Of a DNA stretch of 33,950 nucleotides, positions 2-25,519 are shown piece after piece (the first letter of the stretch is position 1; each line of letters opens with the position of its first letter). The stretch covers positions 1 to 33,950 of the forward strand of contig JAPWVB010000003.1 in assembly GCA_028275205.1 (NCBI GenBank), given 5' to 3'. The position numbers were made by a program, and so were the translations under genes. A model generated the notes under the pieces. It saw only the letters and a list, made by a program, of their open reading frames with translations, did no database searches and had not been told where the DNA came from. The stretch is from Candidatus Acetothermia bacterium (GTDB lineage Bacteria; Bipolaricaulota; Bipolaricaulia; RBG-16-55-9; DRXL01).

Positions 2-3000
2 GTGACGCTCACCGGGCCTGCGGGGCCGTATCTCATTGGAGCACCAGTCACGCTGACGGCCACGGGCAATCCCGGGAGCTCCTCAGGCCTGTGGACCTAT
101 AGCTTCAGCGCTAGCCCAGCTTGCGGGACCTTCAACCCTGCTACGATTGGGCCGACCGATCAAAAGACCGTCACGACAGAGTTCACCCCGACAGTGGAGA
201 CGCCCAGCTGCACGCTCGAGGTGACGCTGACGACTGCCTCGGGCAGGACGGCCAAGGCGTCTATCACCCGCGCCATCCAGGGTGCTAAGATCATTATCAT
301 TAAGGACGCTGTCCCCGATGACCCGCAGGACTTCTCGTTCTCGAGCACGGGTGGTTTGGTCCCGGCGACCTTCACCCTCGATGATGATGGTGATCCGACA
401 TGGCCCAATACCCAGACCTTCACAGGCCTGGCCCCTGGGACGTACACCGTGACCGAAGCTGATCCCTCGCCTGGGTTCTTGCTCACAGCGATCACCTGTA
501 CTACAGGTGGCAGCGGCGACGTCCCCTCCCGCACCGCGACCATCACCTTAGCTCCGGGAGCTACGGTCACTTGTACGTTTGTCAACACTAAGCAGCTAGG
601 CACGATCGTGATCAACAAGGCGGCTGTGGGCGGGGATGATACGTTCAATTACACCGCCAGCGGCACCGGCCTGCCCGCTACCTTCCAGATCACAACTTCT
701 GGTGGCAGCGGTAGCCAGACATTTGCCAACTTGGCAGGCGGTTCCTACACCGTGACAGAACAGACCCCGCCAACAGGCTGGGATTTCACGAGCCTAGTCT
801 GCACCGACCCTGACGGCGGCACCACAGTCGTCGGCCAGACCGCCAATATTGACCTCGATCCGGGCGAAACAGTCACTTGTACTTACACCAATACCAAGCG
901 CGGCACGATCGTGATCAACAAGGCGGCTGTGGGCGGGGATGATACGTTCAATTACACCACCAGCGGCACCGGCGGCTTGCCCGGCTCTTTCTCGATCACC
1001 ACTGCGAGCGGCTCCGGTTCCCAGACCTTCACTAATATCATCCCTGGCAGCCACACCGTCACCGAGGGCACTCCGCCAACAGGCTGGAGCTTCACGAGCT
1101 TAGTCTGCACCGACCCTGACGGCGGCACCACGGTCGTCGGCCAGACCGCCAATATTGACCTCGACCCCGGCGAAACGGTCACCTGCACCTACACTAACAC
1201 TTTCACACCGCCGGCCCAGCCACAGTGTCCGGCCAATCTCATTGCCGAGAGCGAGCCCAATAACGACAATGCAAGCGCGCAGCCCCTCAACCTCGCGCCC
1301 GGCCAAGGGACGGCCATCGTCAGCGGCGGCATCACGCCCGCGGGCGATCTGGACTACTATCAAATCACTGTCACTGAACCGTCCCTGGTCTTCGCGTACG
1401 TGCGCACCAATATAGCCACGACGAACACAGACTCGACTCTCTTCATCGGCGTGAGCCCGGTCACCACGGGGAGCAGCTGCACCGGAACCGGCTTCACTGA
1501 GTGCGACGACGACGACGGCGGCCAAGGTGGAATAAGCTCGTCCATCGCTGGTCTTAACTTAGCTGCCGGCACCTATAACATCTTGGTGAAGCAGTACAGC
1601 AATACTGGCGCCCCTGGCAGTGGCTCTACTATGACTCCGTACCGGCTCTACGTCGCCGTGGTGCCGACGTCTGCTGTCATCACCGAGAGCGAGCCCAACG
1701 ACACTCCGGCCACTGGGCAGCTTATCAACACCTGTCCGGCGGTCATCTCTGGCACGGGCGGCGGCGTAGGAGGCAGTGACTACTATCGCTTCCTCGTCCC
1801 CGGCGGAAACACTGTCTTGTGGGCCAGCGCTTTGCAACCCAACCCCGGAGAATGGAACTCTCGGCTCGAGCTCTGGAGAGTCTCTACGAACGTCAAGATC
1901 CCGTTCGTCGGAGCCGCGGGCTTGCCGAACTGTGACTCCGCGGGTACCGGCACGGCGACCAATCCCGCGTCAGAATCGTGCTCGAAGCACTACGAGTATG
2001 ACTCTGCCGACACTTGGCCGAACACACCTGAGGACTACGCGGTCAACATCCGACGGAACGCCGATCCCGACACCGGCACCGGCGGGACATACAACCTGCT
2101 GATTGTTGTGATGACCGACATCGGCTCGCCACCGCCACCGCCACCTGCGAACCTGCCGGCGGTCTTCGCGTACGCGAAGCGTGGTGCCACAAATAACGAC
2201 ACCGTGATGCGTCTGAGGACGACAACGTCTGGCGTGCCGGTCTACTCGAGCTGTGCCGCGGCCACACCACCGGACATCGAGTGCGATGACGACGCCGGAC
2301 ATGGCTATACGACGCCGCCAGACGTGGTCTACCCGCCCACGGGCGGTGGCGGTGGGCTCAACTCGGCGATCGCTGGGCATCCGTTTGGGAACATCGGCGA
2401 GCTGATCTTCATCCAGGGCTATGGCTCGACGACTACAGTCGGTCCGTTCGACCTCTACATCCACGTCCCCGACGGCTCGCTGGGCCAGCTCACGGAGATG
2501 AACGACGCCACCAACGGCACGATCGCCGGCGCTGAGAGCGTCCCGGCGCTGCCGGCCTGCACGCAAGTCTACAGCGAGGCAACCGGCAACCAGAGGCCAG
2601 GCTTCGGCGCGGGCGGCTCGGACAACGTCCCTGTGCCTTCTCCTTCCGCGGGCTGGACGATGGACGGCAGCTTCAGCAGCGACACCGACGTGGATTACTT
2701 CGGGCCGATTGCCATCGGGGCGACGGAGCGCGTCTTCATTGCCATTGACGGCAGCCTCAACTACGGAGGCGCGCCCCACGACCATGATGGCTACAACGCG
2801 GATATCTCGTTCAGCTTGCGTACGTCAGGTGATGCGGTCATCATCACCATTGACGGTGAAAGCGGCACCAGCCAGGGTGCTCTGGCCGAGGTCTTCAGTG
2901 GGACGCCCGGCGCGTTCCCTCTACCTGACGGGGTCTTCTACATCCGCGTGGCAGCCAAGTCGGGTGATGCCTTCAAGGGCTATCGGCTGACGGCCTGCAA

Positions 3001-3007
3001 GTTCTGA
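2..3007 (+). CDS. Secreted/surface repeat protein (5' partial): tandem SpaA/prealbumin-like beta domains followed by pre-peptidase C-terminal (PPC)-like domains
   Basis: Long ORF open to the window edge. Three TIVINKAAVGGDDTFNYT...TVTE..PPTGW...VTCTYTNT modules, then ESEPNN/ESEPND...DYYxxxV and DVDYFGPIAI PPC-like motifs and a PPPPPP linker. Confidence 0.75.
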   Translation: MTLTGPAGPYLIGAPVTLTATGNPGSSSGLWTYSFSASPACGTFNPATIGPTDQKTVTTEFTPTVETPSCTLEVTLTTASGRTAKASITRAIQGAKIIIIKDAVPDDPQDFSFSSTGGLVPATFTLDDDGDPTWPNTQTFTGLAPGTYTVTEADPSPGFLLTAITCTTGGSGDVPSRTATITLAPGATVTCTFVNTKQLGTIVINKAAVGGDDTFNYTASGTGLPATFQITTSGGSGSQTFANLAGGSYTVTEQTPPTGWDFTSLVCTDPDGGTTVVGQTANIDLDPGETVTCTYTNTKRGTIVINKAAVGGDDTFNYTTSGTGGLPGSFSITTASGSGSQTFTNIIPGSHTVTEGTPPTGWSFTSLVCTDPDGGTTVVGQTANIDLDPGETVTCTYTNTFTPPAQPQCPANLIAESEPNNDNASAQPLNLAPGQGTAIVSGGITPAGDLDYYQITVTEPSLVFAYVRTNIATTNTDSTLFIGVSPVTTGSSCTGTGFTECDDDDGGQGGISSSIAGLNLAAGTYNILVKQYSNTGAPGSGSTMTPYRLYVAVVPTSAVITESEPNDTPATGQLINTCPAVISGTGGGVGGSDYYRFLVPGGNTVLWASALQPNPGEWNSRLELWRVSTNVKIPFVGAAGLPNCDSAGTGTATNPASESCSKHYEYDSADTWPNTPEDYAVNIRRNADPDTGTGGTYNLLIVVMTDIGSPPPPPPANLPAVFAYAKRGATNNDTVMRLRTTTSGVPVYSSCAAATPPDIECDDDAGHGYTTPPDVVYPPTGGGGGLNSAIAGHPFGNIGELIFIQGYGSTTTVGPFDLYIHVPDGSLGQLTEMNDATNGTIAGAESVPALPACTQVYSEATGNQRPGFGAGGSDNVPVPSPSAGWTMDGSFSSDTDVDYFGPIAIGATERVFIAIDGSLNYGGAPHDHDGYNADISFSLRTSGDAVIITIDGESGTSQGALAEVFSGTPGAFPLPDGVFYIRVAAKSGDAFKGYRLTACKF

Positions 3008-3067
3008 AGGATGTGTCGAGGGGGTACAGCACGCTGTGCCCCGTGGAAACGAACGAGCGGACTTGGC

Positions 3068-3206: not shown

Positions 3207-5021
3207 ATGGTGATGAAAATGAGACCCCTGCGATGGCTCATAGCTGGGATAGCCCTTGGGGCTGTGCTCGTTCGATTCAGTTCTGCCCAGCCCTCCTCCC
3301 CCGTTGATCCTGAGGTGCTTCAGGAGATTCAAGCGAATGGCTCCACTCGCGTCATCGTCACCCTGACGGACACCTCAGCTTTGCGGGTCCAGCAGATCGC
3401 TCAGAGGATCGAGGGCGTCCTGCGCGAGCTGACCCCACAAGATTTTCAGCTCTCGCGGCGATTTCAGTCTATCGCGGCCTTTGCCGGGGTCGTGACCGCT
3501 ACAGGGATCGCGAAACTAGAGCGCCATCCGGACGTCATGCGCGTCCAGCTCGATCTTGTGCTCCGCGCGATCTCTCCCCAGCCCCGCCTCCAGCCTCACC
3601 TCAGCGAGAGCGTCCCCTTGATCCAAGCGAACAGCGTGCATAGCTTGGGCATTCGAGGGAATGGGGTACGCATCGCCATCATAGACACGGGCATTGATAC
3701 AGACCACCCCGACTTCAGCACCGCTGCGCCTGGGGATCGCATCGTCGCACAGAATTGCTTCCTCAGCGGGGCAAGCTGCCCTTCCCCGCCCAACGTCGCC
3801 GAGGACGGCAACGGCCACGGGACGCACGTGTCGGGGATCGCCGCTTCCGACGGCTCGGTCTCTCCCGTCGGCGTTGCCCCTCAGGCCCAGCTCGTCGCAA
3901 TCAAAGTGCTGCGCGATAATGGCAGTGGCTATCTCTCCGATACCGTTGCGGCCCTCGACTGGATCTATACGCACAACGCTTCGCTCAACGTGAAGGTTGT
4001 CAACATGAGCCTGGGGAGCCTCGATCTCTACACGCCTCCGTGCGATACGGCCTACCCTGCTATGACCACAGCGATCAACAACCTACGCAATATCGGCGTG
4101 ATCAGCTTTGCGGCCTCGGGCAACAACGCCAACGCCACGCAGATGTCGCTGCCGGCGTGCATCAGCACTGTTGTTTCGGTAGGGGCAGTCTACGATGCGA
4201 ACGTCGGGTCCATCAGCTGGGGAAACCCCCAAGTCTGCAGGGATTTGACAACTGCGGCAGATCAAGTCGCGTGCATCACCAACGGTGTGCCCGATCTGCA
4301 GGCCCCCGGCGCCTTGATCACTTCTTCGTTCATAGGGGGTGGAACGGCTACCCTTGGTGGCACGTCAATGGCCTCACCCCATGCGGCAGGCACCGCAGCC
4401 CTGCTCATCCAAGCGAAGCCCTCGATCACGCCGACGGAGATCGAGACCGTCTTACAGACGACCGGGGTTCCTGTGACCGATCCCAAGAACGGGCAGACGC
4501 GCCCTAGGATCAATGCGTTTGCTGCTGTCTCGGCAGTCCTCTCGTGCACAGCTACAGGAGCAATCTTCCGCATCGAGCGCGCCACGGGGAACGTTTGTAC
4601 TGATGGCTCGTTCTTTAGTGGCAACGCCGACGTCGCCGAGTATATCCTAGCTTCGGAGCCCTTAGAGCCAGGGGATGTCGTCGAGCTCGATCCCCACAAT
4701 CCCAAGCACTACCGCAAGGCGCGAGAGCCCTACAGCCCCTGGGTCGCGGGAGTGATATCGACGCAACCGGGGGTCGTCCTAGGTGCTCGTGGTCACTACG
4801 TGGGAGAGCGCGCTCTCTTGGCGCTCCTTGGTCGTGTGCCGGTCAAAGCGACGACGGAGAACGGCCCGATCCGACCGGGGGATCTGCTCACGAGCGCTTC
4901 GAAGCCCGGCTACGCTATGCGCTGCGTTGACGTCACTCAATGTGAGGGTGCGATCATCGGCAAAGCCCTCGAAGCGTTCGATGAGGGCGAAGGGGCCATC
5001 CTCATGCTCGTGATGCGCTAA
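3207..5021 (+). CDS. Secreted subtilisin-like serine protease (S8) with an additional C-terminal domain
   Basis: Signal-peptide-like N-terminus, I9-like propeptide, catalytic motifs IAIIDTGID, GNGHGTHVSGIA and GGTSMASPHAAGTAALL. C-terminal region DVAEYI..LEPGDVVELDP...VAGVISTQPGVVLG...GRVPVK...NGPIRPGDLLT. Confidence 0.93.
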   Translation: MVMKMRPLRWLIAGIALGAVLVRFSSAQPSSPVDPEVLQEIQANGSTRVIVTLTDTSALRVQQIAQRIEGVLRELTPQDFQLSRRFQSIAAFAGVVTATGIAKLERHPDVMRVQLDLVLRAISPQPRLQPHLSESVPLIQANSVHSLGIRGNGVRIAIIDTGIDTDHPDFSTAAPGDRIVAQNCFLSGASCPSPPNVAEDGNGHGTHVSGIAASDGSVSPVGVAPQAQLVAIKVLRDNGSGYLSDTVAALDWIYTHNASLNVKVVNMSLGSLDLYTPPCDTAYPAMTTAINNLRNIGVISFAASGNNANATQMSLPACISTVVSVGAVYDANVGSISWGNPQVCRDLTTAADQVACITNGVPDLQAPGALITSSFIGGGTATLGGTSMASPHAAGTAALLIQAKPSITPTEIETVLQTTGVPVTDPKNGQTRPRINAFAAVSAVLSCTATGAIFRIERATGNVCTDGSFFSGNADVAEYILASEPLEPGDVVELDPHNPKHYRKAREPYSPWVAGVISTQPGVVLGARGHYVGERALLALLGRVPVKATTENGPIRPGDLLTSASKPGYAMRCVDVTQCEGAIIGKALEAFDEGEGAILMLVMR

Positions 5022-5025
5022 CAGT

Positions 5026-6246
5026 ATGCAACGCTATGACGTGATCGTCGTGGGCGCCGGGCCGGCAGGCGCGACGGCCGCCTATAGCGCCGCGCGGCAC
5101 GGCGCCAAGGTGCTCTTGCTCGAAGAGCACACCCAAATCGGCCGCCCGATTCAGTGTACCGGGCTGCTAAGTCTTCGGGGCTGGTGGCTCGCCCGTGCTT
5201 CAGATTCGATCATTGTCCGAGCGATCACGGGCGTGCACGTGCACTCTCCCGACGGCTCAGTCTACGAGCTAGGCGGCGACCGCGTCCGCGCCTACGTCAT
5301 TGACCGAGATAGATTCGATCAGCACTTAGTGGAGCGCGCGGCACGCTCCGGAGTGGCCGTTCGGGTTGGGACGCGCGCCGTCGAGCTTGGCCCCTACGAG
5401 CACGGCACCCGCGTCCTGCTCACACAGACTCCCGCAGGCGCCCGCGAGAAGCTTCACGCTTCCGTCATCATCGGGGCCGATGGGCCTCACAGTCTCTTAG
5501 CTCAGCAAGCGGGTCTGCCCCGCCCACAGAAGATGCTGTTGGGGCTGCAAGCCCTCATCGAGCATCACGCGCAGAGCTCAGATTTTGTCGAGGTCTTCTT
5601 CGGACGACGCTTTGCGGCCAATGGCTTCGCCTGGTCCGTCCCCGCTGCCGAGGGCACCGCGCGCGTGGGACTTCTTACAGAAAGATTTCGCGAGGCCAAG
5701 CCGTGCTTTGAGCGCCTGCGCGCAGAGTGCCATAGCTCTGGGAGGATCCTCTCGTACCAGTCGGGGATGATCCCCATCGGCCCAGCGCGACGCACCGTCG
5801 CCGACGGGTTTTTGATCGTTGGCGACGCTGCCGGACAAGCCAAGCCCACCAGCGGCGGGGGAATCTATACGGGGATGCTCTGCGGCAGAATCGCTGGAGA
5901 AGTGGCCGCGCGCTGCGCCCTTGTGGGGAAGACCACAGCGCGATTCTTGAGAGAATACGAGCGGCGCTGGCGCGCCAAGCTCGACCGCGAACTCTCGCTG
6001 GGCATGAGAGCTCATCACATCTTGACGCAGCTTGACGATGCTGCCATTGCTGCGGGGCTCAAGCTCTTAGCTCTGCCCCAGCTGCGCAAGCTGATCGAGC
6101 GCTTTGGAGATATAGACTATCCGAGCAAGATCGCGCGCGAGCTCTTCCGACGCCCTCGACTGTGGAACGCGGTCTGGCCCGTCGTTCCCGCGGGGCTGGC
6201 TCAGTACGTCAAGAGCGTCTATCGGGCAACGATGGCGAGAATGTGA
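5026..6246 (+). CDS. FAD-dependent oxidoreductase, geranylgeranyl reductase family
   Basis: N-terminal dinucleotide-binding motif DVIVVGAGPAGATAAYSAARHGAKVLLLEE; Q-C-T-G motif (RPIQCTGLLS); GDAAGQAKPTSGGGIYTGM motif typical of GGR-family flavoproteins. Confidence 0.85.
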   Translation: MQRYDVIVVGAGPAGATAAYSAARHGAKVLLLEEHTQIGRPIQCTGLLSLRGWWLARASDSIIVRAITGVHVHSPDGSVYELGGDRVRAYVIDRDRFDQHLVERAARSGVAVRVGTRAVELGPYEHGTRVLLTQTPAGAREKLHASVIIGADGPHSLLAQQAGLPRPQKMLLGLQALIEHHAQSSDFVEVFFGRRFAANGFAWSVPAAEGTARVGLLTERFREAKPCFERLRAECHSSGRILSYQSGMIPIGPARRTVADGFLIVGDAAGQAKPTSGGGIYTGMLCGRIAGEVAARCALVGKTTARFLREYERRWRAKLDRELSLGMRAHHILTQLDDAAIAAGLKLLALPQLRKLIERFGDIDYPSKIARELFRRPRLWNAVWPVVPAGLAQYVKSVYRATMARM

Positions 6247-6257
6247 TATACTCATTT

Positions 6258-6357
6258 GACCCCTCCCCGGCACAGAGAGGGGAGACCTCACCCGTTCCCT
6301 CTCCGTTTACGGAGAGGGTCAGGGAGAGGTAGGGAAGGGGGCTAGGGGGTTAGGTCA
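6258..6357. repeat. Intergenic palindromic, G-tract-rich repeat (copy 1)
   Basis: CCCTCTCCG/CGGAGAGGG inverted repeat with flanking ACCTCACCC/GGGAGAGGT, ending GGGGGCTAGGGGGTTAGGTC. The tail is shared with the copy near 9320-9358. Confidence 0.6.
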
Positions 6358-6390
6358 TTGAGAGCTTCCAGACAAGGGGGAACAGACTCT

Positions 6391-7080
6391 ATGCATGAGA
6401 TCTCTTCGTGGACGCTTGTTGAGCGCGAGCAGAAGAGCTTGGAGATCTTACGTCAAGCGCTCGCGGAGTTTGGGACGGAGATGGCCATAGCCTTCACCGG
6501 CGGGAAGGACTCGTTAGTGGCGCTCGATCTGGTGCGGCGAGCGGGCAATGGGCGCGTCCCTATCCCCGTCTTGCACATCGACACGACTGTAGACTTCCCC
6601 GAGGTCTACGAGTACCGCGACAGATTGGCGCGCGCGTGGGGCTTCCAGCTCATTATATATCAGAACCGCGAAGCCCTCGCCGAAGCCCCGCCCGTCAGCG
6701 ATCCCCATTTCTGTCTCTTCTGCACCAAGCGCCTCAAGACGGAGGCGCTCAACCAAGCTATCCAGAAATATAGATGGCGCGCGCTCATCACGGGCGTGCG
6801 CTGGGATGAGCACCACGCTCGATCCCAAGAGACGTATTTCTCCCCGCGGCCCGATCACGTGCGGGTACACCCCATTCTGCACTTCCGCGAGCGCGACGTC
6901 TGGGAGTATATTAAGAAATACCAGTTGCCCTACTGCCCGCTCTACGACAAGGGCTATCGCAGCTTGGGATGTGTGCCGTGCACCAAGCCCGTTACTGATA
7001 GAAGTGTGCCGGAGCGGGCCGGTCGCGGCACCGACAAAGAGGGGCTGATGGAACGCCTGCGGGCGCTGGGGTATTTTTGA
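6391..7080 (+). CDS. Phosphoadenosine phosphosulfate reductase / CysD-like N-type ATP pyrophosphatase family protein
   Basis: PP-loop variant AFTGGKDSLVALDL, FCLFCTKRLKTEAL, SLGCVPCTKPV, DKEGLMERLRALGYF. Start moved from TTG 6358 to ATG 6391, just past the repeat. Confidence 0.82.
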   Translation: MHEISSWTLVEREQKSLEILRQALAEFGTEMAIAFTGGKDSLVALDLVRRAGNGRVPIPVLHIDTTVDFPEVYEYRDRLARAWGFQLIIYQNREALAEAPPVSDPHFCLFCTKRLKTEALNQAIQKYRWRALITGVRWDEHHARSQETYFSPRPDHVRVHPILHFRERDVWEYIKKYQLPYCPLYDKGYRSLGCVPCTKPVTDRSVPERAGRGTDKEGLMERLRALGYF

Positions 7081-7082
7081 AT

Positions 7083-7180
7083 CACGGAAAGCACGGGATG
7101 CAGCCACGGAAGGCACGGAAAGCTTCTAAGACCCCTAAGCGAAGCTCTCTCTTCCCCGCAAGGGGAGGGGGCTTAGACGC
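7083..7180. repeat. CACGGAA-type direct repeat plus palindromic G-rich repeat (copy 2)
   Basis: CACGGAAAGCACGG...CCACGGAAGGCACGGAAAG, followed by CTAAGCGAAGCTCTCTCTTCCCCGCAAGGGGAGGGGGCTTAG. Confidence 0.5.
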
Positions 7181-7193
7181 CGCACGCGCGCTC

Positions 7194-9311
7194 ATGAAGC
7201 GCGCTACGGCGCGCGTGCGATCCGTGTCGCTTTCCAGACTGCGCTTCTGGTTCTTAGTGACCATCGTCTTCGCCATCCCCATCGTGATCTATCTGCCCAA
7301 CACCGAGTACGGCTACACCAAGAGCACTCTCTTCTATCTTGGCGTCTCGCTCTTGCTCGCTCTCTGGGCGGTCGAGCTGTTCTTTCGTTCACAGATAGAG
7401 ATCAGCGTGACGCGGCTGGCGTGGCCGGCGCTGGGGGTGCTGGGCGCGGCCGCGCTCTCGCTCGTCAACGCCGAAAATCTCGCGCTCAGTCTGATAAGCT
7501 TCGTCGGGCTCATCTATTTTGGGCTGCTGGGCTTGCTCATCGTCAACACGATCGAGAGCGAGCGCGATATGAAGATTCTGCTGAGCGCGCTCTTGCTGTC
7601 AGCAAGCATCGCTTCAGTCTATGGGCTCTTGCAGTATTACGGGAAGGTGCCGGGGCCGCCAGGGTTTTTAGGAGGCAGCTTGGCGATGATCTCCACGTTT
7701 GGGAATCCCAATTATCTTGCGGGGTTTCTCGCGCATCTCCTTGTGCCGGGGATCGCCCTCTCGGTGATGATTGAGAATCGCTGGGCGCGCTTGGCGCTCT
7801 TAATAGTCTTAATCGCGATGACCGCGGCGCTCGTGGCGGCCAATTCTGTTGGGGCGTATCTTGCGGTGCTCTTTTCTGTGATCTTCTTCTTCGGTGGGAT
7901 GATGATCTTTCGGCTCAGATCGGCGATAGCGGGCCAGCGCCGCTGGGTCTTGGCTGTAGTGATTCTCTTGGCCATAACGGTGTGGCTGCAATCGCCCCCG
8001 GGGCCGCTCAACGCGCTCTTAGGCCGCGCCGCGACTCTTGAGCCGACGCCCATCGAGCGGGTCGTTCAGTTCTTCCAGCGCCTGTGGGAGGAGAACTCTG
8101 GGATTGCACGCAGCTGGAACTGGTGGATTGCCTACGAGATGCTCAAAGCGCACCCATTTGTCGGGGTGGGCCTGGGAGATTACAAAGTCGAGTTCTTAGA
8201 GTATAAAGCGCGCTTCAAAGAGACCCCGCTGGGGCAGCACTATAATTTCTATCTGCCCCGCGCAATCCAAGCGCATAACGACTACGTACAGCTCATTGCA
8301 GAGCTAGGGCTGATCGGGCTTTTAGCCATTGGGTTTTTTGCGGGGACGCTGATACGAAGCGCACATGCTTTTGTGCGTTCGTCGGCGAGTCCGCAGGCTC
8401 GCCTGTGGGTCGTAGCCCTCTCAGCGGGGATCGTCGCTTTTCTGATAGATGCTTCAGTGAGCTTTCCGTTGCACTTGCCAGCGTCGGAGCTCAACCTTGT
8501 GCTCTTTATCAGTTTGCTGTGCGCGCGCTCGCTGCTTGGCCCTGAGCCGACGGTGACGCTGCGATCGTCGGCCAAGATCACAGTTGGCGCGACAATGCTC
8601 GCTCTTGCGCTTGTCGTCTGCTTTTTTGCGTATCGCGACTGGCAGGCCGACATCGCCCTCGACGAGGGAGAGGCTGAGATGAATAGCTTTCGCTACGAGA
8701 CGGCGCGCATCGCTCTGGAGCGCAGCGTTGCTTTGGGGATCGCCCCAGGGAAGGCGTTTTACTATCTTGGGGTTGTCTACACTGAGCGCGGGGAGCTGCA
8801 GCGCGCCCGCGACTACTTTGAGCGATCTCTGAAGACTTACCCCACGGAGAACGCGTACATTCAGCTAGCTGATCTTTCTCTACGCTTGGGAGAACCTCAG
8901 CGCGCGCAAGAGCATCTCAAGACGCTCTTGCGGCTCGATCCGGAGCCCACTCTGCGCCTGGAAGCTGAGTTTATGCAGCGGGTGCTCGTGCCCCTCTCGC
9001 AAGGGGATCGCACTCTTGCGTGGGCGGAGCTAGCCAAATTCTTACAAGAGCATCCCGACTATCCCAGGGGATATCTGGCGCTTGGGATGCTGCATCTTGA
9101 GCGCGGCGAACGAGAGGCAGCCCGCGCGGAGTTCGAGCGCGGGCTCGCTGTCATCGCCCAGCTCAAGCAGAAGATTCTTCAGCGCTTGGATCAGATTCAG
9201 CGCAGTCGGCGGCTGGCTGACCCTGACGAGCTCACTCAGCTGCGAGCTCGCGCCGCGGCGCTCGCTCAGATGGAGGGCCAGCTCAAAGAGCTGATCGCGC
9301 AGCTGCGCTGA
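7194..9311 (+). CDS. O-antigen ligase/polymerase (Wzy_C-like) membrane protein with C-terminal TPR repeats
   Basis: Multiple hydrophobic segments, NWWIAYEMLKAHPFVGVGLGDYK and AHNDYVQLIAELGLIGL motifs, then TPR-like YYLGVVYTERGELQRARDYFERSL. Start moved from 7077 to ATG 7194 because the upstream codons fall in repeat DNA. Confidence 0.8.
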   Translation: MKRATARVRSVSLSRLRFWFLVTIVFAIPIVIYLPNTEYGYTKSTLFYLGVSLLLALWAVELFFRSQIEISVTRLAWPALGVLGAAALSLVNAENLALSLISFVGLIYFGLLGLLIVNTIESERDMKILLSALLLSASIASVYGLLQYYGKVPGPPGFLGGSLAMISTFGNPNYLAGFLAHLLVPGIALSVMIENRWARLALLIVLIAMTAALVAANSVGAYLAVLFSVIFFFGGMMIFRLRSAIAGQRRWVLAVVILLAITVWLQSPPGPLNALLGRAATLEPTPIERVVQFFQRLWEENSGIARSWNWWIAYEMLKAHPFVGVGLGDYKVEFLEYKARFKETPLGQHYNFYLPRAIQAHNDYVQLIAELGLIGLLAIGFFAGTLIRSAHAFVRSSASPQARLWVVALSAGIVAFLIDASVSFPLHLPASELNLVLFISLLCARSLLGPEPTVTLRSSAKITVGATMLALALVVCFFAYRDWQADIALDEGEAEMNSFRYETARIALERSVALGIAPGKAFYYLGVVYTERGELQRARDYFERSLKTYPTENAYIQLADLSLRLGEPQRAQEHLKTLLRLDPEPTLRLEAEFMQRVLVPLSQGDRTLAWAELAKFLQEHPDYPRGYLALGMLHLERGEREAARAEFERGLAVIAQLKQKILQRLDQIQRSRRLADPDELTQLRARAAALAQMEGQLKELIAQLR

Positions 9312-19401: not shown

Positions 19402-19785
19402 GGAAGCTTTCCCCAAGGCGCGCGCCTCGATGACGAGCCATCGAGAACTCTGCCAGCGCAGCCACAGAGCTCCCAAGACTAACACGATGGGAGGCACAGC
19501 AAACGCTATCAAGGCCCACCACGGAAGACGCCCCTCAACAGTAAGAGCGACAAAGAGACTGAGAAAGAGCATCTTGTCGGCTACGGGGTCTAGGAGCTTT
19601 CCTAGGGCAGTGATCTGGCGCTGGGAGCGCGCCAGCGCTCCATCAACGAGATCACTCGCCAGCACCAGGGCGAGCACGGTGTAAAAGAGCCACAACGGGC
19701 CCCAGAAGAAGAGCAGTATCAAGATGGGGATAGCGAGAATTCGTGAGAGTGTAATAGCGTTGGGCAGGGCCAAGACGTCCTTCAT
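19216..19785 (-). CDS. pgsA: CDP-diacylglycerol--glycerol-3-phosphate 3-phosphatidyltransferase
   Basis: CDP-alcohol phosphatidyltransferase signature (D-L-V-D-G-A-x8-G-x3-D-x3-D): SDLVDGALARSQRQITALGKLLDPVADK; MKDVLALPNAITLSRILAIP start. Confidence 0.93.
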   Translation of the reverse strand: MKDVLALPNAITLSRILAIPILILLFFWGPLWLFYTVLALVLASDLVDGALARSQRQITALGKLLDPVADKMLFLSLFVALTVEGRLPWWALIAFAVPPIVLVLGALWLRWQSSRWLVIEARALGKASSTMLSVGLVGLLLEPIFPVLSRIALFVLYGGIALSYAALGEYIVIALQQWEKLHRDGSHKL

Positions 19786-20348
19786 AGTCCCAACTGCGGT
19801 GCGATCCCCTGCATAGCTTTGATCACTATATCTATATGTTCGTCAAGAGGAACGCCCAGTTCTTGGGCCCCTTGCTCGATCTCTTCGCGGTTGACCCCGC
19901 GCGCGAACGCCTTGTCTTTCCATTTCTTCTTGACGGCCTCGACGGTCACCTCGGCTAAGCTCTTGGTGGGGCGCACCAACGCCGTAGCCACGATCAGCCC
20001 CGTTAGCTCATCGCACGCAAAGAGCGCCTTGGCCATGAGCGACGTGCGCGGGATGCCCGTGTATGAAGCGTGCCCTAAGATCGCTTGGCAGATCTCTTCA
20101 GCGACGCCGCGCTCCCGCAAGATCTGCACCCCAACCGTGGGATGCCCTTGGGTCGGGTGACGCTCATGGTTGGGATACCTTTCGTAGTCGAAGTCATGAA
20201 GCAACCCCGCCAGGCCCCAGCTCTCCTCATCTTGGCCGAACTTCCGTGCATAAGCTCGCATCGCGGCTTCGACCGCGAGCATGTGCTTGATGAGATTCTG
20301 ATTCTTCGTGTACTCGTGCACCAATGCTAATGCTTCTTCGCGCGTCAT
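19782..20348 (-). CDS. HD-domain (HDIG-like) phosphohydrolase family protein
   Basis: LAGLLHDFDYERYPNHERHP, HASYTGIPRTSLMAKALFACDELTGLIVATALVRP; 4-nt overlap with the pgsA start. Confidence 0.87.
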   Translation of the reverse strand: MTREEALALVHEYTKNQNLIKHMLAVEAAMRAYARKFGQDEESWGLAGLLHDFDYERYPNHERHPTQGHPTVGVQILRERGVAEEICQAILGHASYTGIPRTSLMAKALFACDELTGLIVATALVRPTKSLAEVTVEAVKKKWKDKAFARGVNREEIEQGAQELGVPLDEHIDIVIKAMQGIAPQLGL

Positions 20349-20396: not shown

Positions 20397-21395
20397 TCAA
20401 GCTTTGTCGAACAGTCCCAACTGATGGGCCTTGTGGGAGGATTGGCGCTTGAGCGCCTGGGCGGCTTGGTGGCTGGCGTTGTGAGCATGCTGAATCGGCT
20501 CTGGTAAGAGATTCTTCAACGTCAGTTGAGTCAGCTCAATAGCAGTCTCTAGATCTATGCGATGCCCCGGCGAGACGAAGAATGGCTCAGACGAATCTGC
20601 AGGTTTGATTGCAGCCCCCGCGCGCTGGCCCCCAACGCGAATGTAACAGATCTCGCCGGGCGCTAAGCTCCGAAGATCTCTCTCAGGCTCGCCGTGTAAG
20701 AGCGATTTCGTGATCCCGATCGTGGGGATATCAAGCATCACGCCCAACTGAGAGGCGATGCCCGCTTGGCGATGATGGAGCGTCCCCGTGCCATCCACAA
20801 AAGTGATATCGGCGAGGGCGTTCTGTTCTTTGAGCTTTTGGAGTAAGGCGAGCATCACCGGCAGCTCGCGGAATGCCAAATAGCTGGGGATATACGGGAA
20901 GCGCACCTCTTGTGTGAGCGTGTGCGTCTCGATGAGGGTTAAGCTCGGCAGCTCCAAGCGCACATACGCTGCGACGCCTTGGGTTCCTACGTATGAGAGA
21001 TCCACCCCGCCCGCGGTGCGATAGTCCGATCTATCAGGGACGAGGCGCATCTGCGCTCGGATGGCGTTTTGGATCTCTTGGAGTTTCTGGAGGGGTTTTT
21101 CGCTGCGGAAATCGCGAAAGAGAAATTTTGTCAGCGAGAGCACGCGGCCGCCTTTGACGGGGACGCCCTCAGCTTGAAGGAGCTGAGCTTGTTCTTCCGT
21201 GACTGTGCCATCGAAGCTCACGACGCGATGGCTGGGGCAGTCTCTCTTATGCTGAGCCAAGATCGAGCCCACGGCGCGCGCGGCGATGGGATCGCCAAGC
21301 GCGAGGGCGATCTCGCGGAACGTCGCGACTTTGCCCTGAGGAATCTGAGCGACCAGCTCGAGAGTAATCTTTTCGATGTCGGGCAGGGCGAGCAT
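20397..21395 (-). CDS. Fusion protein: alkyltransferase-like (AGT/ATL) DNA-binding domain + endonuclease V
   Basis: N-terminus IPQGKVATFREIALALGDPIAARAVGSILAQHKRDCPSHRVVSFDGTV (AGT/ATL fold). C-terminus TAGGVDLSY, FPYIPSYLAFRELP, FVDGTGTLHHRQAGIASQLGV, VSPGHRIDLETAI (EndoV motifs). Confidence 0.92.
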   Translation of the reverse strand: MLALPDIEKITLELVAQIPQGKVATFREIALALGDPIAARAVGSILAQHKRDCPSHRVVSFDGTVTEEQAQLLQAEGVPVKGGRVLSLTKFLFRDFRSEKPLQKLQEIQNAIRAQMRLVPDRSDYRTAGGVDLSYVGTQGVAAYVRLELPSLTLIETHTLTQEVRFPYIPSYLAFRELPVMLALLQKLKEQNALADITFVDGTGTLHHRQAGIASQLGVMLDIPTIGITKSLLHGEPERDLRSLAPGEICYIRVGGQRAGAAIKPADSSEPFFVSPGHRIDLETAIELTQLTLKNLLPEPIQHAHNASHQAAQALKRQSSHKAHQLGLFDKA

Positions 21396-21419: not shown

Positions 21420-21677
21420 TCACTTGGAGTACTCCTTCACCAGCAGGGCGATGGCCTCGCGCATCAGTTCAGATTTATTAGCTTTGCGCCCGGTGCGCTT
21501 GCGGATTTGCAACTGAAGCTCCTCCAGGGCGATAATATCATCTGGGGTCAGGTAGAACGTCGCTTTCACCAGCCCTGGTGCGGACTCTTCGGGATCTTTG
21601 GGCGTGGGCTTGTAAAAATCCTTCATGATCTCGCTTTCGGCAAGCGGATCATGTGCGATAGAGCGACGCGGCTTCAT
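21420..21677 (-). CDS. Small putative ribbon-helix-helix DNA-binding protein, probable ParA partner
   Basis: VKATFYLTPDDIIALEELQLQIRKRTGRKANKSELMREAIALLVKEY (RHH-like beta-alpha-alpha); ATG overlaps the parA stop by 4 nt. Confidence 0.65.
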   Translation of the reverse strand: MKPRRSIAHDPLAESEIMKDFYKPTPKDPEESAPGLVKATFYLTPDDIIALEELQLQIRKRTGRKANKSELMREAIALLVKEYSK

Positions 21678-22465
21678 CGAGCGATCACCTGCGCTTCTTG
21701 AGCGCGATGGCCATTAGAGCTTGGAGTTCCCTCAAGAACACGCTCAGCTAATCTTTTGTAATCTTGGGCGCCGTAGGAAGTGGGATCGTACTCGAAGATC
21801 GTCTGGTGGTGGCTGGCGGCTTCAGCCAGGCGCACGTTGGCGCGGATGGGCTCGGTGACTTTGGCGCCAAAGTGCAGTTCTAATCTCTCTAAGACTTCGC
21901 GGCTCTTGCGGTTGCGCCCGTCGTAGAACGTGGGGATGACCAGCGACACCTCGATGGGGTGTTCTAAGATCTCGCGGACCATCTTGAGGTTCTCTAAGAT
22001 CTGCTTGACGCCCACGAGCGCTAAATAGTCCATGCTCACGGGGATGAACGCTTCGTCGGCGTAGACGATAGCGTTCTGATTTAAGAGATTTAAGCTGGGC
22101 GGGCAATCCAAGAGCACAAAATCATAGCCGGAGAGCTTGGCGAGCTTGCGGCTGAGGACGCGCTCGCGCCCCGGAAGCCCCGTCAGAATCAATTCGGCCT
22201 GGGCGGCGGTCTTCGTGCTTGGGAGAATATCTATATGCTCGCGCACCGAGAGAATACACTCGTGGGGCGTGGTCATCTCATCGACGAGCAAGTGATAGAG
22301 CGACTTCTGGGGGACGACGTCGAACCACGTAGCTACGTTGCCTTGGGGGTCCATGTCAATTAAGAGAACTCTCTGATTGTAGAGGGCCAAGGCCGCTGCG
22401 AGATTGACGGCGGTTGTGGTCTTGGCCGTGCCCCCTTTCTGATTGATGATCGCGATCTTGCGCAT
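21674..22465 (-). CDS. parA: ParA/Soj-family partition ATPase
   Basis: Deviant Walker A IINQKGGTAKTTTAVNLAAALA, LLIDMDPQGN, FVLLDCPPSL. Start moved from 22546 to 22465 (MRKIAIINQKGG). Confidence 0.92.
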   Translation of the reverse strand: MRKIAIINQKGGTAKTTTAVNLAAALALYNQRVLLIDMDPQGNVATWFDVVPQKSLYHLLVDEMTTPHECILSVREHIDILPSTKTAAQAELILTGLPGRERVLSRKLAKLSGYDFVLLDCPPSLNLLNQNAIVYADEAFIPVSMDYLALVGVKQILENLKMVREILEHPIEVSLVIPTFYDGRNRKSREVLERLELHFGAKVTEPIRANVRLAEAASHHQTIFEYDPTSYGAQDYKRLAERVLEGTPSSNGHRAQEAQVIAR

Positions 22466-22482
22466 CCTCTCACCTCGTTCGG

Positions 22483-22530
22483 ATTGTGATGGCATGCCAG
22501 CACAATGGCTTAGCGCCATTGTGCCACAAG
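22483..22530. promoter_or_regulatory. Cluster of ATTGTG/CACAAT half-sites including a 10-bp inverted repeat (putative operator/partition site)
   Basis: ATTGTG 22483-22488, CACAAT 22501-22506, ATTGTG 22518-22523, CACAAg 22525-22530; GCACAATGGC-ttagc-GCCATTGTGC hairpin 22500-22524, just upstream of parA. Confidence 0.55.
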
Positions 22531-22538
22531 AAAGAGAG

Positions 22539-22574
22539 CCTCCCAAGGACAGCTGTCCCTTGAGGATGGGGAGG
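22539..22574 (-). terminator. Candidate terminator/attenuator hairpin between larC and parA
   Basis: Minus strand: CCTCCCC...AAGGGACAGCTGTCCTTGGGAGG followed by CTCTCTTTCTTG, immediately after the larC stop. Confidence 0.5.
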
Positions 22575-22578
22575 ACGC

Positions 22579-23748
22579 TCAGGCTGAACGACTTGCAGCT
22601 TCGGTCGCCGCACGGTAGATCTCTTTTAACGCGACGCCCCGCTCTTCCGCAAGCCTCTTGCAGTCCTCATACTCCGGCGCAATATTGATAATCTCAGAGC
22701 CCAGCATCCCCAGCTTCACCCGAACTTGCCCATACGGCGTCTGAACTTCTATAATTTTTCGGGCGAGCTTCTTGCGCTTCACTGAATAATAGATCGCCCC
22801 CAGCGTCGTCGTCTCGCGAAAGAGTATCTCGCAGAGCTTGTCCACTACCGCAGCATCGCAGAGCACGCGCACGAGCAGCCCAGGACGCCCCTTCTTCATC
22901 AAAATAGTGTGGGCGCTGACGCTCTTGGCCCCATGATCAAAGAGCTTCTGCTGCACATAGGGGAAGAGCTCCGGGTTCATGTCGTCAATCTCTGTTTCGA
23001 TGACGACGGTCTCGTCTTGTTCGAAATCTGTGACGCTCTCGCCAACGAGAACTCTCAGCACGTTAGGCTGCGGGAGGTCTTTCGTGCCCGCGCCATAGCC
23101 GATCTGGTGCCAGCGCGCTGGCGGCATGGCAAACTCCGGGGAGAGATATTTCAGAAGCGCCGCGCCGGTGGGCGTGGTCAGTTCTGTCTCGATCCCCGAC
23201 GAATAGACCGGAAAATCTTTGAGAAGCTCAAGCGTCGCCGGCGCGGGCACGGGGAGTCTGCCATGTGCCGTCTCGATCATACCGGACCCGAGATTAATCT
23301 TAGACGCGTACCATTGGTCAATCTGTAACGACTCTATCGCGACGGCAGCCCCGACGATGTCGCATATCGAATCGAGGGCGCCCAGCTCGTGGAAGTGCAC
23401 GTCATCTATAGCAATGCTGTGAATCTTCGCTTCGGCTTGGGCGAGAGCGCTGAAGATCGCGATGGCTCGCGCCTTCTCGGCAGGCGTCAATGAGCTCTTC
23501 TCAACCAGCGTGCGAATCTCCGACCAGTGCCGATGCGCATGAGAGTGGAAATCTGACTCAAAGCGCAGGTGGGTGGCAGCGATGCCCTGGCGCATCACGC
23601 GTTCGGTGCGCACCGAGATTGGGCCTAGGCCAAGCTGCGAGAGCTTCTCGCTCAAGAGCTGAGCTGTAATGAGCTGGGCGTCTATGAGCGCCGCGAGGAA
23701 CATATCTCCGGCGATGCCGGAGAAGCAGTCTAAGTATGCGATCTTCAT
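22579..23748 (-). CDS. larC: Nickel-pincer cofactor biosynthesis protein LarC (nickel insertion)
   Basis: MKIAYLDCFSGIAGDMFLAALIDA; FHELGALDSICDIVGAAVAIESL; ELTTPTGAALLKYL; ETEIDDMNPELFPYV; ETTTLGAIYYSVKRKKL. A single uninterrupted ORF. Confidence 0.95.
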   Translation of the reverse strand: MKIAYLDCFSGIAGDMFLAALIDAQLITAQLLSEKLSQLGLGPISVRTERVMRQGIAATHLRFESDFHSHAHRHWSEIRTLVEKSSLTPAEKARAIAIFSALAQAEAKIHSIAIDDVHFHELGALDSICDIVGAAVAIESLQIDQWYASKINLGSGMIETAHGRLPVPAPATLELLKDFPVYSSGIETELTTPTGAALLKYLSPEFAMPPARWHQIGYGAGTKDLPQPNVLRVLVGESVTDFEQDETVVIETEIDDMNPELFPYVQQKLFDHGAKSVSAHTILMKKGRPGLLVRVLCDAAVVDKLCEILFRETTTLGAIYYSVKRKKLARKIIEVQTPYGQVRVKLGMLGSEIINIAPEYEDCKRLAEERGVALKEIYRAATEAASRSA

Positions 23749-25205
23749 GGTTCGTTGATCTTCGTCGCCAGCACGGCTGCGCCGAAGCCGTTATCTATAT
23801 TGACCACAGCCACCCCCGGCGCGCAACTGTTAAGCATCGTGAGCAGCGCCGAAAGCCCGCCAAAGCTCGCCCCGTACCCCACGCCCGTAGGCACAGCAAT
23901 GATGGGTTTATCCACAAGCCCTGCGACGACGCTGGGCAGCACCCCGTCCATCCCCGCCACTACGATCAGCACGCGCGCGGCGTTGAGACGCTCCCGATGC
24001 GCGAGAACTCTGTGCATCCACGCGACTCCGACGTCATAGAGTCGCTCTGTCGGGTTCCCAAGATACTGCGCCGTCACGGCGGCTTCTTCAGCAACGGGGA
24101 TATCTGAAGTTCCGGCGGTGACGACGAGCACGGTGCCACCCTGTGGAGCCTTGGGAGCTCCAAGGGTCAGCAGTCGCGCTTGCTCGTGATAGATCACTTC
24201 AGGGAGCAGCTCTTGCACAGCGCGGGCTTGCTCTGGGGTGGCGCGCGTTGCTAAGACGGGCTCGGTCTTCTTGCGCAGCTCGCTCATGATAGCTGCGATC
24301 TGTTCTGAAGTTTTCCCCGGACAAAAGACGGCCTCAGCGACCCCACAGCGTCCCTCGCGCTCGAGGTCGGGACGAGCGAAAGGGTCTGAGGGCGCGGGGC
24401 TGTGGTCCTTGAGGGCTTCGTTCATGCTGCCGCTGCGATAGCCCATAAGATCGAGCGTCACGTAGCGGAAGCCGAGCTTCTTCAGATGAGTAGCCACAGG
24501 GTCGCGATGCGCTAGCACTGTGGGCATCTCCTCTGGGGGCACTTCAATGCGTGCCATGCCCTCATGATGGCGCACGCGCACTTGGCTCAGCCCCAACCCG
24601 AAGAGAAACTCCTCGGCGTGCTCGATCTGTCTGAGCTTTTCAGGGGTGATCGTACTGCCGTAGGGCAGGCGCGAAGCTAAGCACGCCATCGCAGGCTTCT
24701 CAGCAGTAGGGAGCCCAAGCATCCGCGCGATCTCGCGAATTTCGGGCTTAGTCAGCCCAATCTCCAAGAGCGGGCTGCAAACAGTATATTCTTTGAGGGC
24801 ACGCATACCGGGCCGAAAGTCTTGGGTGTCCGAAGCGTTGGTGCCGTCGAGCACATGGGCAAAGCCGCGCGCGCGAGCTAGCTCGGTGAGCTTGCTGAAG
24901 AGCTCTTGCTTACAGTGAAAACAGCGCGTTGGGGGGTTGTTGACATAGCGCGGGTCGTCCAGCTCGCGCGTGAAGATGATCTCGTGAGGGACGCCAAGCT
25001 GTTGCGCGAGCTTCTGCGCGGCTTCAAGCTCGCGCTGGGCGTAGACGGGCGAGTGCGCCGTCACCGCGAGCACACGATCCCCTAGTTCTTGCTTAGCGAT
25101 AGCTAAGACGACCGAGCTGTCTACTCCCCCCGAGAACGCGACAATAGCACTACCGTAGCTTCGTATCAAGGCTCTCAAAGCCGTCAGTTTCTCTTGCAGG
25201 GTCAT
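23745..25205 (-). CDS. LarE::LarB fusion (ATP-dependent sacrificial sulfur transferase + pyridinium-3,5-biscarboxylic acid mononucleotide synthase)
   Basis: LarE half: AIVAFSGGVDSSVVLAIAKQ, RCFHCKQELFSKL, KPAMACLASRLPYG. LarB half: VLVVTAGTSDIPVAEEAAVTA, DVGVAWMHRVL, VVAGMDGVLPSVVAGLV, PTGVGYGASFGGLSALLTMLNSCAPGVAVVNIDNGFGAA. Start moved from 25289 to ATG 25205. Confidence 0.94.
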   Translation of the reverse strand: MTLQEKLTALRALIRSYGSAIVAFSGGVDSSVVLAIAKQELGDRVLAVTAHSPVYAQRELEAAQKLAQQLGVPHEIIFTRELDDPRYVNNPPTRCFHCKQELFSKLTELARARGFAHVLDGTNASDTQDFRPGMRALKEYTVCSPLLEIGLTKPEIREIARMLGLPTAEKPAMACLASRLPYGSTITPEKLRQIEHAEEFLFGLGLSQVRVRHHEGMARIEVPPEEMPTVLAHRDPVATHLKKLGFRYVTLDLMGYRSGSMNEALKDHSPAPSDPFARPDLEREGRCGVAEAVFCPGKTSEQIAAIMSELRKKTEPVLATRATPEQARAVQELLPEVIYHEQARLLTLGAPKAPQGGTVLVVTAGTSDIPVAEEAAVTAQYLGNPTERLYDVGVAWMHRVLAHRERLNAARVLIVVAGMDGVLPSVVAGLVDKPIIAVPTGVGYGASFGGLSALLTMLNSCAPGVAVVNIDNGFGAAVLATKINEP

Positions 25206-25226
25206 ACTGCAACTGTAGCGAGTTGG

Positions 25227-25255
25227 TTGCGGGTGCGCAACCCCAAAACTATAAT
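25227..25255 (+). promoter_or_regulatory. Candidate plus-strand promoter in the larEB / small-ORF intergenic region
   Basis: TTGCGG (25227-25232), 17-nt spacer, TATAAT (25250-25255). An overlapping minus-strand TATAGT faces larEB; GGTTGCG/CGCAACC inverted repeat at 25225-25242. Confidence 0.5.
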
Positions 25256-25266
25256 GAGGCAGCGCT

Positions 25267-25519
25267 ATGGCTGAACCCCAAGGGATCACAGCGGAGCTCT
25301 ATCGCGCCATTGTCACTATAGTAGAGGACATCGCGCGCGTCGTGCTGCCGGGGTATCTGAAACAACGCTATGTGGGGTCACAGTAGAGCGATTAGAACGC
25401 CGCATCTTCTCTGTGGATGGGCAACGGTTCGATGTCGATCTGTATGCCGAAGTTGCTGCGTATCAGCCCACTATGGAAGCGACGGCGCCGCGTCGCCGCC
25501 GTCGCACAAAAAGAGTATA
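25267..25519 (+). pseudogene. Short ORF interrupted by an apparent -1 frame change at a GGGG run; unknown function
   Basis: ATG 25267: MAEPQGITAELYRAIVTIVEDIARVVLPGYLKQRYVGSQ-stop(25386). The alternative frame from 25377 continues VTVERLERRIFSVDGQRFDVDLYAEVAAYQPTMEATAPRRRRRTKRV-stop. Confidence 0.35.

Follow-up and report, generated by a model that had tools for sequence, protein, structure and literature searches.

Why should an endonuclease V (EndoV) carry, in the same polypeptide, an AGT-like domain that has lost its alkyl-acceptor cysteine? The question is raised by a gene on the minus strand of the window, i.e. the whole stretch of 33,950 nucleotides analysed here, which derives from a draft genome of the phylum Bipolaricaulota that is 61% complete. 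AGT folds whose acceptor is dead are believed to mark alkyl damage so that other pathways can deal with it. The answer that we regard as probable is that the protein combines an active EndoV with an arm of AGT/ATL fold, which reads DNA and transfers no alkyl group, and with a tether to the sliding clamp. Its basis is the architecture of the open reading frame (ORF), the loss of the acceptor, the residues of the EndoV half, purifying selection on the AGT-like domain, a motif match in the C-terminal tail and the separate AGT genes of related genomes.

The fusion gene and its neighbours

The ORF at positions 20397-21395 (minus strand, as are all features of this gene given below) was uninterrupted from ATG to stop and encodes 332 amino acids; the sequence GGGAG was seen 5′ of the ATG. 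The earlier note had read it as an AGT-like domain joined to EndoV, and Pfam confirmed this reading, placing DNA_binding_1 (PF01035, E 1.4e-14) on residues 11-78 (21162..21365) and Endonuclease_5 (PF04493, E 4e-53) on residues 113-305 (20481..21059), both in one frame and well over the Pfam cut-offs. The combination of an AGT C-terminal domain and EndoV in a single ORF is that of the AGTendoV/ATL-EndoV fusions. In phmmer searches against solved structures the first half matched Atl1, Vibrio ATL, Ada and human AGT, and the second half matched T. maritima EndoV (E 3e-35). A frameshift joining two separate genes was excluded, as nine genomes of the genera g1 and g3 agreed with the window, and the fusion was present as one ORF in 57 Bipolaricaulota genomes. 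A scan of genome contigs with the single fusion protein returned close relatives only, the nearest named ones being Candidatus Bipolaricaulota MAGs, and tblastn of plasmid and phage records yielded no such fusion from outside Bipolaricaulota. The AlphaFold model of the fusion (pLDDT 94, pTM 0.88) was confident everywhere but in the C-terminal tail.

The EndoV half is complete, and the catalytic-region motifs recognised earlier proved to be part of a full set. Asp132 (21000..21002) aligned with catalytic D43 of the T. maritima enzyme, Glu177 (20865..20867), within the wedge segment PYIPSYLAFRE, with E89, and Asp201 (20793..20795), within VDGTGTLHHRQ, with D110; equivalents of D43, Y80, R88, E89, D110, H116 and K139 were found in all 57 fusions. 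With the full model, Foldseek retrieved the EndoV fold (E 4e-24 to 3hd0; TM 0.90 by target length). T. maritima EndoV (2w35, 3hd0), with which the fusion shares 35% identity and all catalytic residues, differs in being a stand-alone enzyme without an AGT-like arm.

The fusion gene is set among housekeeping genes. Directly downstream, after a gap of 48 nt, lies a gene for an HD/HDIG-domain protein (19782..20348, minus strand); upstream, across a gap of 24 nt, lies one for a small ribbon-helix-helix-like protein (21420..21677, minus strand), and next to it one for ParA (21674-22546, minus strand), both probable operon partners in the window's clade. Genes for LarE-LarB, LarC, ParA, the ribbon-helix-helix-like protein, the HD-domain protein and a PgsA-like protein share the strand of the fusion, with overlaps or short gaps, and this arrangement therefore makes it likely that the fusion gene and its neighbours form an operon. 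The HD/HDIG gene was located directly 3′ of the fusion in every locus read from families f1, f2 and f4 (62-94% identity); the loci checked from families f3, f5, f7 and f8 showed none next to the fusion. The HD/HDIG protein was better conserved than the fusion. Its nearest solved relatives, with weak scores, were YqeK-like nucleotide phosphatases, and it may, as a guess, clean the nucleotide pool.

Several observations concern other genes. The LarE-LarB ORF (23745-25289, minus strand) joins two nickel-pincer cofactor enzymes, LarE (residues 33-290) and LarB (308-513); LarC adjoins it, and the ORF was kept in loci L033 and L035. A large surface-type protein with near-identical repeats (GTIVINKAAVGGDDTFNY...) is encoded at the edge of the window (2-3007, plus strand). 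In locus L032 of a related MAG, a PurH-like sequence was in frame with the C-terminal half of ParA at NAIVYA (324-3065), which looks like an assembly chimera, and a DnaB-like helicase (5002-7641) contained an apparent intein, a long insert that starts with CVTGDTQVIDG and ends with VHN-S.

The alkyl-acceptor position

The acceptor motif CPSHRVV (residues 53-59; 21219..21239) begins with the codons TGC CCC AGC CAT CGC (C-P-S-H-R), and Ser55 (21231-21233) stands at the alkyl-acceptor position. In the phmmer alignment the motif fell on PWHRV of Atl1, on PCHRV of Ada and on PSHRV of 1t38, the human Cys-to-Ser crystal construct, with Ser55 at the position of Cys145 of human AGT and Trp56 of Atl1. 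Both codons and alignment therefore bear out the serine described in the earlier note. A base-call error was rejected, because all nine sampled genomes of the two nearest genera (g1 and g3) carry Ser. The protein has neither the acceptor Cys in PCHRV that marks an AGT (Ser in 9/9 of the clade) nor the Trp that most ATLs have at this position. After the acceptor, four of these nine genomes have His and the other five have Tyr.

A profile search of 100 Bipolaricaulota genomes, followed by ORF reading, was used to survey the acceptor in fused homologs and gave 57 fused proteins. Their acceptor column held Val (26), Cys (14), Ser (11), Ala (3), Leu (1), Ile (1) and Gly (1), so that the acceptor Cys was absent from 43 of the 57; Trp occurred in none of them. 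Since 12 of the 14 Cys-bearing fusions had lost the following His, PCHR was kept in only 2/57. Families f2 and f4 mostly showed PCYKV and family f8 showed PCWRV or PCWKV, while the motif of family f7 was P-[V, rarely A/L/I/G/S]-HRVV. A tree built from the EndoV part, in which many branches were weakly supported, required a minimum of 3 changes for Cys versus not-Cys and of 10 for the acceptor residue itself. Loss of the Cys-His pair is thus the rule in Bipolaricaulota fusions and Ser is one local form: the claim of a serine variant held for the window's clade, but Ser is one of several substitutions, and Val is the commonest in the phylum. The range of Cys, Ser, Val, Ala, Leu, Ile and Gly across the fused phylum amounts to a natural mutagenesis series for an AGT fold without transfer. 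In family f6 no fusion was found, and only three genomes gave an EndoV match (G036, G043 and G087; loci L087, L088 and L089), with no AGT-like domain in the match.

Fold, pocket and conservation of the AGT-like domain

When the AGT-like part of the predicted model was searched alone with Foldseek, DNA-bound Atl1 (TM 0.84), Vibrio ATL (0.82) and Atl1 (0.81) were retrieved, and true AGTs all ranked below Atl1 and Vibrio ATL (TM 0.58-0.72 by query length). The predicted fold is in this respect nearer to ATL than to AGT, and the domain resembles ATLs in its AGT C-terminal fold and in having neither the acceptor Cys nor the N-terminal domain. Arg40 (21276..21278) aligned with the Arg finger (R128 of human AGT, R39 of Atl1), which was kept in 9/9 of the window's clade and in all 24 homologs outside f7. 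It was lost in 11 of 33 proteins of the f7 clade, and these losses suggest that the f7 arm may do without base flipping. The triad Glu (Glu76, equivalent to Glu172) was kept throughout the window's clade (9/9). Phe26 (21318..21320) occupies the position of the conserved base-flipping Tyr with which the helix-turn-helix begins (Tyr114, Tyr25 or, in StoMGMT, Tyr91), and Phe was found there in all nine genomes. Trp56, Pro50 and Arg69 of Atl1, named as its lesion contacts in the relevant passages of PMC10779285, aligned with Ser55, a gap and Glu68 of the fusion, and the pocket-loop stretch of the window's clade was 7-8 residues shorter than in most other fusions. Because its pocket residues differ in this way, with Phe for Tyr and without equivalents of the three Atl1 contacts, the domain, judged by its alignment, fits the canonical pattern of neither AGT nor ATL.

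These features bear on a reading in which the arm senses O6-alkylguanine as a genuine ATL would and EndoV incises beside the alkylated base, a one-protein shortcut for the route that ATL takes via nucleotide excision repair. We hold this to be possible, though rather unlikely. The ATL-like sensor tethered to EndoV had been put forward in the earlier note, and of that proposal the fusion, the missing Cys, the intact EndoV and the ATL-like fold stood, whereas the reading of O6-alkylguanine was not established. The ranking of the ATLs before all AGTs in the predicted model would speak for such a sensor, and an archaeal ATL-EndoV fusion with this proposed role is on record in passages of PMC10779285. 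An analogy is also offered by the laboratory mutant Y91F/C120S of StoMGMT, which carries the same two substitutions as the fusion (Y91 corresponding to F26 and C120 to S55, according to the matched ranges, query 15-80 to chain 80-150, and the PCHRV motif): the mutant keeps its structure and still admits O6-methyl-deoxyguanosine to its pocket, but weakly and with ambiguous density for the base (PMC8647212). The lack of equivalents of Trp56, Pro50 and Arg69, the Phe at the flipping position and the shortened pocket loop argue against the sensor. Moreover, the acceptor residue has changed at least 10 times on the tree, a free drift that a tuned lesion pocket would not be expected to show, and EndoV nicking at O6-alkylguanine is a proposal only.

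The authors of the StoMGMT study propose that the Tyr shields the reactive Cys from oxidation (PMC8647212). Among the homologs, the Tyr was kept in all 14 that bear Cys and lost in 15 of the 43 that do not (Fisher p 0.012); coupled loss of Cys and protective Tyr was nevertheless discarded, as the tree gives just 2-3 independent contrasts and the comparison is therefore no test. By analogy, the StoMGMT mutant would fit an order in which Cys was lost first and Tyr was then dispensable.

The AGT-like domain might instead be a vestige in the course of being lost, the protein being simply an EndoV, and losses of the acceptor, the His and the Tyr do occur in places, as does that of the Arg finger in f7. 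However, in the nine nearest genomes the domain was more constrained than EndoV, both in pN/pS (0.13 vs 0.19; the ratios are rough at a mean dS near 1, but their direction is clear) and in mean dN (0.071 vs 0.122), and its amino-acid identity was higher (0.88 vs 0.82). It was also kept in all fused homologs, with P19, T25, L33, G34 and D35 among its invariant residues. Purifying selection on the AGT-like domain is at least as strong as that on EndoV; the dead domain is therefore in use and no relic, and a vestige, weakened by the selection test, is improbable.

That the fusion is still an alkyltransferase, with Cys53 or Ser55 as acceptor, is very improbable: Cys53, which the earlier note had correctly placed two residues before Ser55, is kept in 8/9 nearest genomes, as is the Glu172 equivalent in the clade, but it is Ser in the ninth (G007), which weakens the case for a shifted acceptor, the His partner is Tyr in 5/9, a Ser acceptor is the standard dead mutant for substrate trapping (1t38, 7csm), and canonical AGTs are encoded elsewhere in related genomes.

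A second AGT gene was present in 8 of the 10 genomes of the window's family. Seven of these genes were fully readable and encode PCHRV together with the N-terminal part, and the eighth (G001) was cut by a contig end; AGTs with PCHRV and an N-terminal part were also found in genomes further out. The two family genomes without a second AGT were the window's own, whose completeness is given above, and G009 (75% complete). UvrB was matched in all 10 family genomes, and the usual partner pathway of ATLs is therefore also available. Two genomes of the same order, G012 (L101) and G013 (L098), encode a canonical AGT, a free-standing ATL with PWHRV and the EndoV fusion together.

The C-terminal motif, proposed function and known systems

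A feature beyond those of the earlier note is the sequence QLGLF at residues 325-329 (20409..20423), a candidate beta-clamp-binding peptide. It matches QLxLF, the best form of the DnaN-binding consensus Q-phi-x-[LM]-[FL] or Q-phi-x-[LM]-x-[FL] (PMC11139829), and sits after a variable linker in the low-confidence tail of the model, an exposed position as in a client of the clamp. Fusions of families f1, f2 and f4 end in QLGLF-DKA, QLSLF-DKS, QKELF-DKA, QMALDL, QMELGL, QKALNF or QQSLDL, and the preceding linker varies among them in length and sequence. The seven-residue motif stretch was more conserved (79% identity) than the linker (56%). Tallied over the related genomes, 17/17 of these fusions matched the relaxed and 13/17 the strict pattern, compared with 2% and 0.5%, respectively, of shuffled tails; the window's own ORFs served as a second background, and no other ORF of at least 150 codons in the window had the motif at its C-terminus. 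None of the 34 fusions of f7 and f8 had it either. Since it is short and absent from these families, the motif is a lineage add-on outside the core design. The families that carry it are those with the linked HD/HDIG gene. DnaN is encoded in the genome, and the tail, judged by its sequence, is most likely a docking peptide for this sliding clamp; the motif directly predicts that EndoV is recruited to replication. A precedent among deamination nucleases is EndoQ, whose C-terminal PCNA box binds PCNA at 55 nM and which is stimulated by PCNA (PMC4858679). A word search of a beta-clamp review (PMC11139829) returned neither "endonuclease" nor "Ogt".

In the reading preferred here, EndoV would be active and tethered to the clamp, with an arm that does not transfer alkyl groups. 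This arm would bind DNA by gripping the minor groove via its helix-turn-helix and the Arg finger, and would help the enzyme to scan damaged DNA or to keep hold of it. The nuclease domain would nick at a deaminated base of the hypoxanthine class, the clamp peptide may keep the enzyme close to replication or repair synthesis, and direct reversal of O6-alkylguanine would be left to the separate canonical AGT. In a bolder version for families f1, f2 and f4, which we consider unlikely, the enzyme would be tethered to the replication clamp, its dead AGT fold would recognise O6-alkylguanine or other damaged bases and pass them to EndoV within the one polypeptide, and the HD hydrolase encoded next to it would keep the nucleotide pool clean. 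If true, a single bacterial protein would lead from alkyl or deamination damage to incision of the strand at the fork.

The idea of an ATL-EndoV is already in the literature, from archaea: according to passages of PMC10779285, a Ferroplasma AGT-EndoV fusion has both activities, and archaeal ATL-EndoV fusions are mentioned in which EndoV is suggested to take XPG's part. What appears to be new, within the literature searched, is the spread of the fusion through a bacterial phylum, the variety of the acceptor, including Cys without His, the evidence of selection on a dead domain and the C-terminal clamp motif. AGTendoV of Ferroplasma acidarmanus (Kanugula et al. 2005, as described in parts of PMC10779285 and PMC7690668) likewise joins the C-terminal half of AGT to EndoV without the AGT N-terminal domain. 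By that description, the Ferroplasma protein transfers alkyl groups, whereas here the acceptor is Ser and the flipping Tyr is Phe; the shortened pocket loop, the C-terminal clamp motif and the bacterial host are further differences. The archaeal ATL-EndoV fusions (Tubbs et al. 2009, as cited in PMC10779285) have a Cys-less AGT-like domain and EndoV in common with the present protein; ATLs mostly carry Trp at the acceptor, in contrast to the Ser of the window's clade, and the review's passages on these fusions make no mention of a clamp motif or an HD neighbour. ATLs themselves (S. pombe Atl1, E. coli ATL, Vibrio 2kif) are nearest in predicted fold and share the Arg finger and the absence of both N-terminal domain and acceptor Cys, but the fusion differs in its Atl1 contact positions, in Phe for Tyr25 and in the attached nuclease. 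EndoQ of Thermococcales (PMC4858679), a nuclease of deamination repair, binds its clamp through a peptide at the very C-terminus, where the fusion has its candidate motif; the two nucleases are unrelated, and EndoQ uses archaeal PCNA, whereas the candidate partner here is bacterial DnaN.
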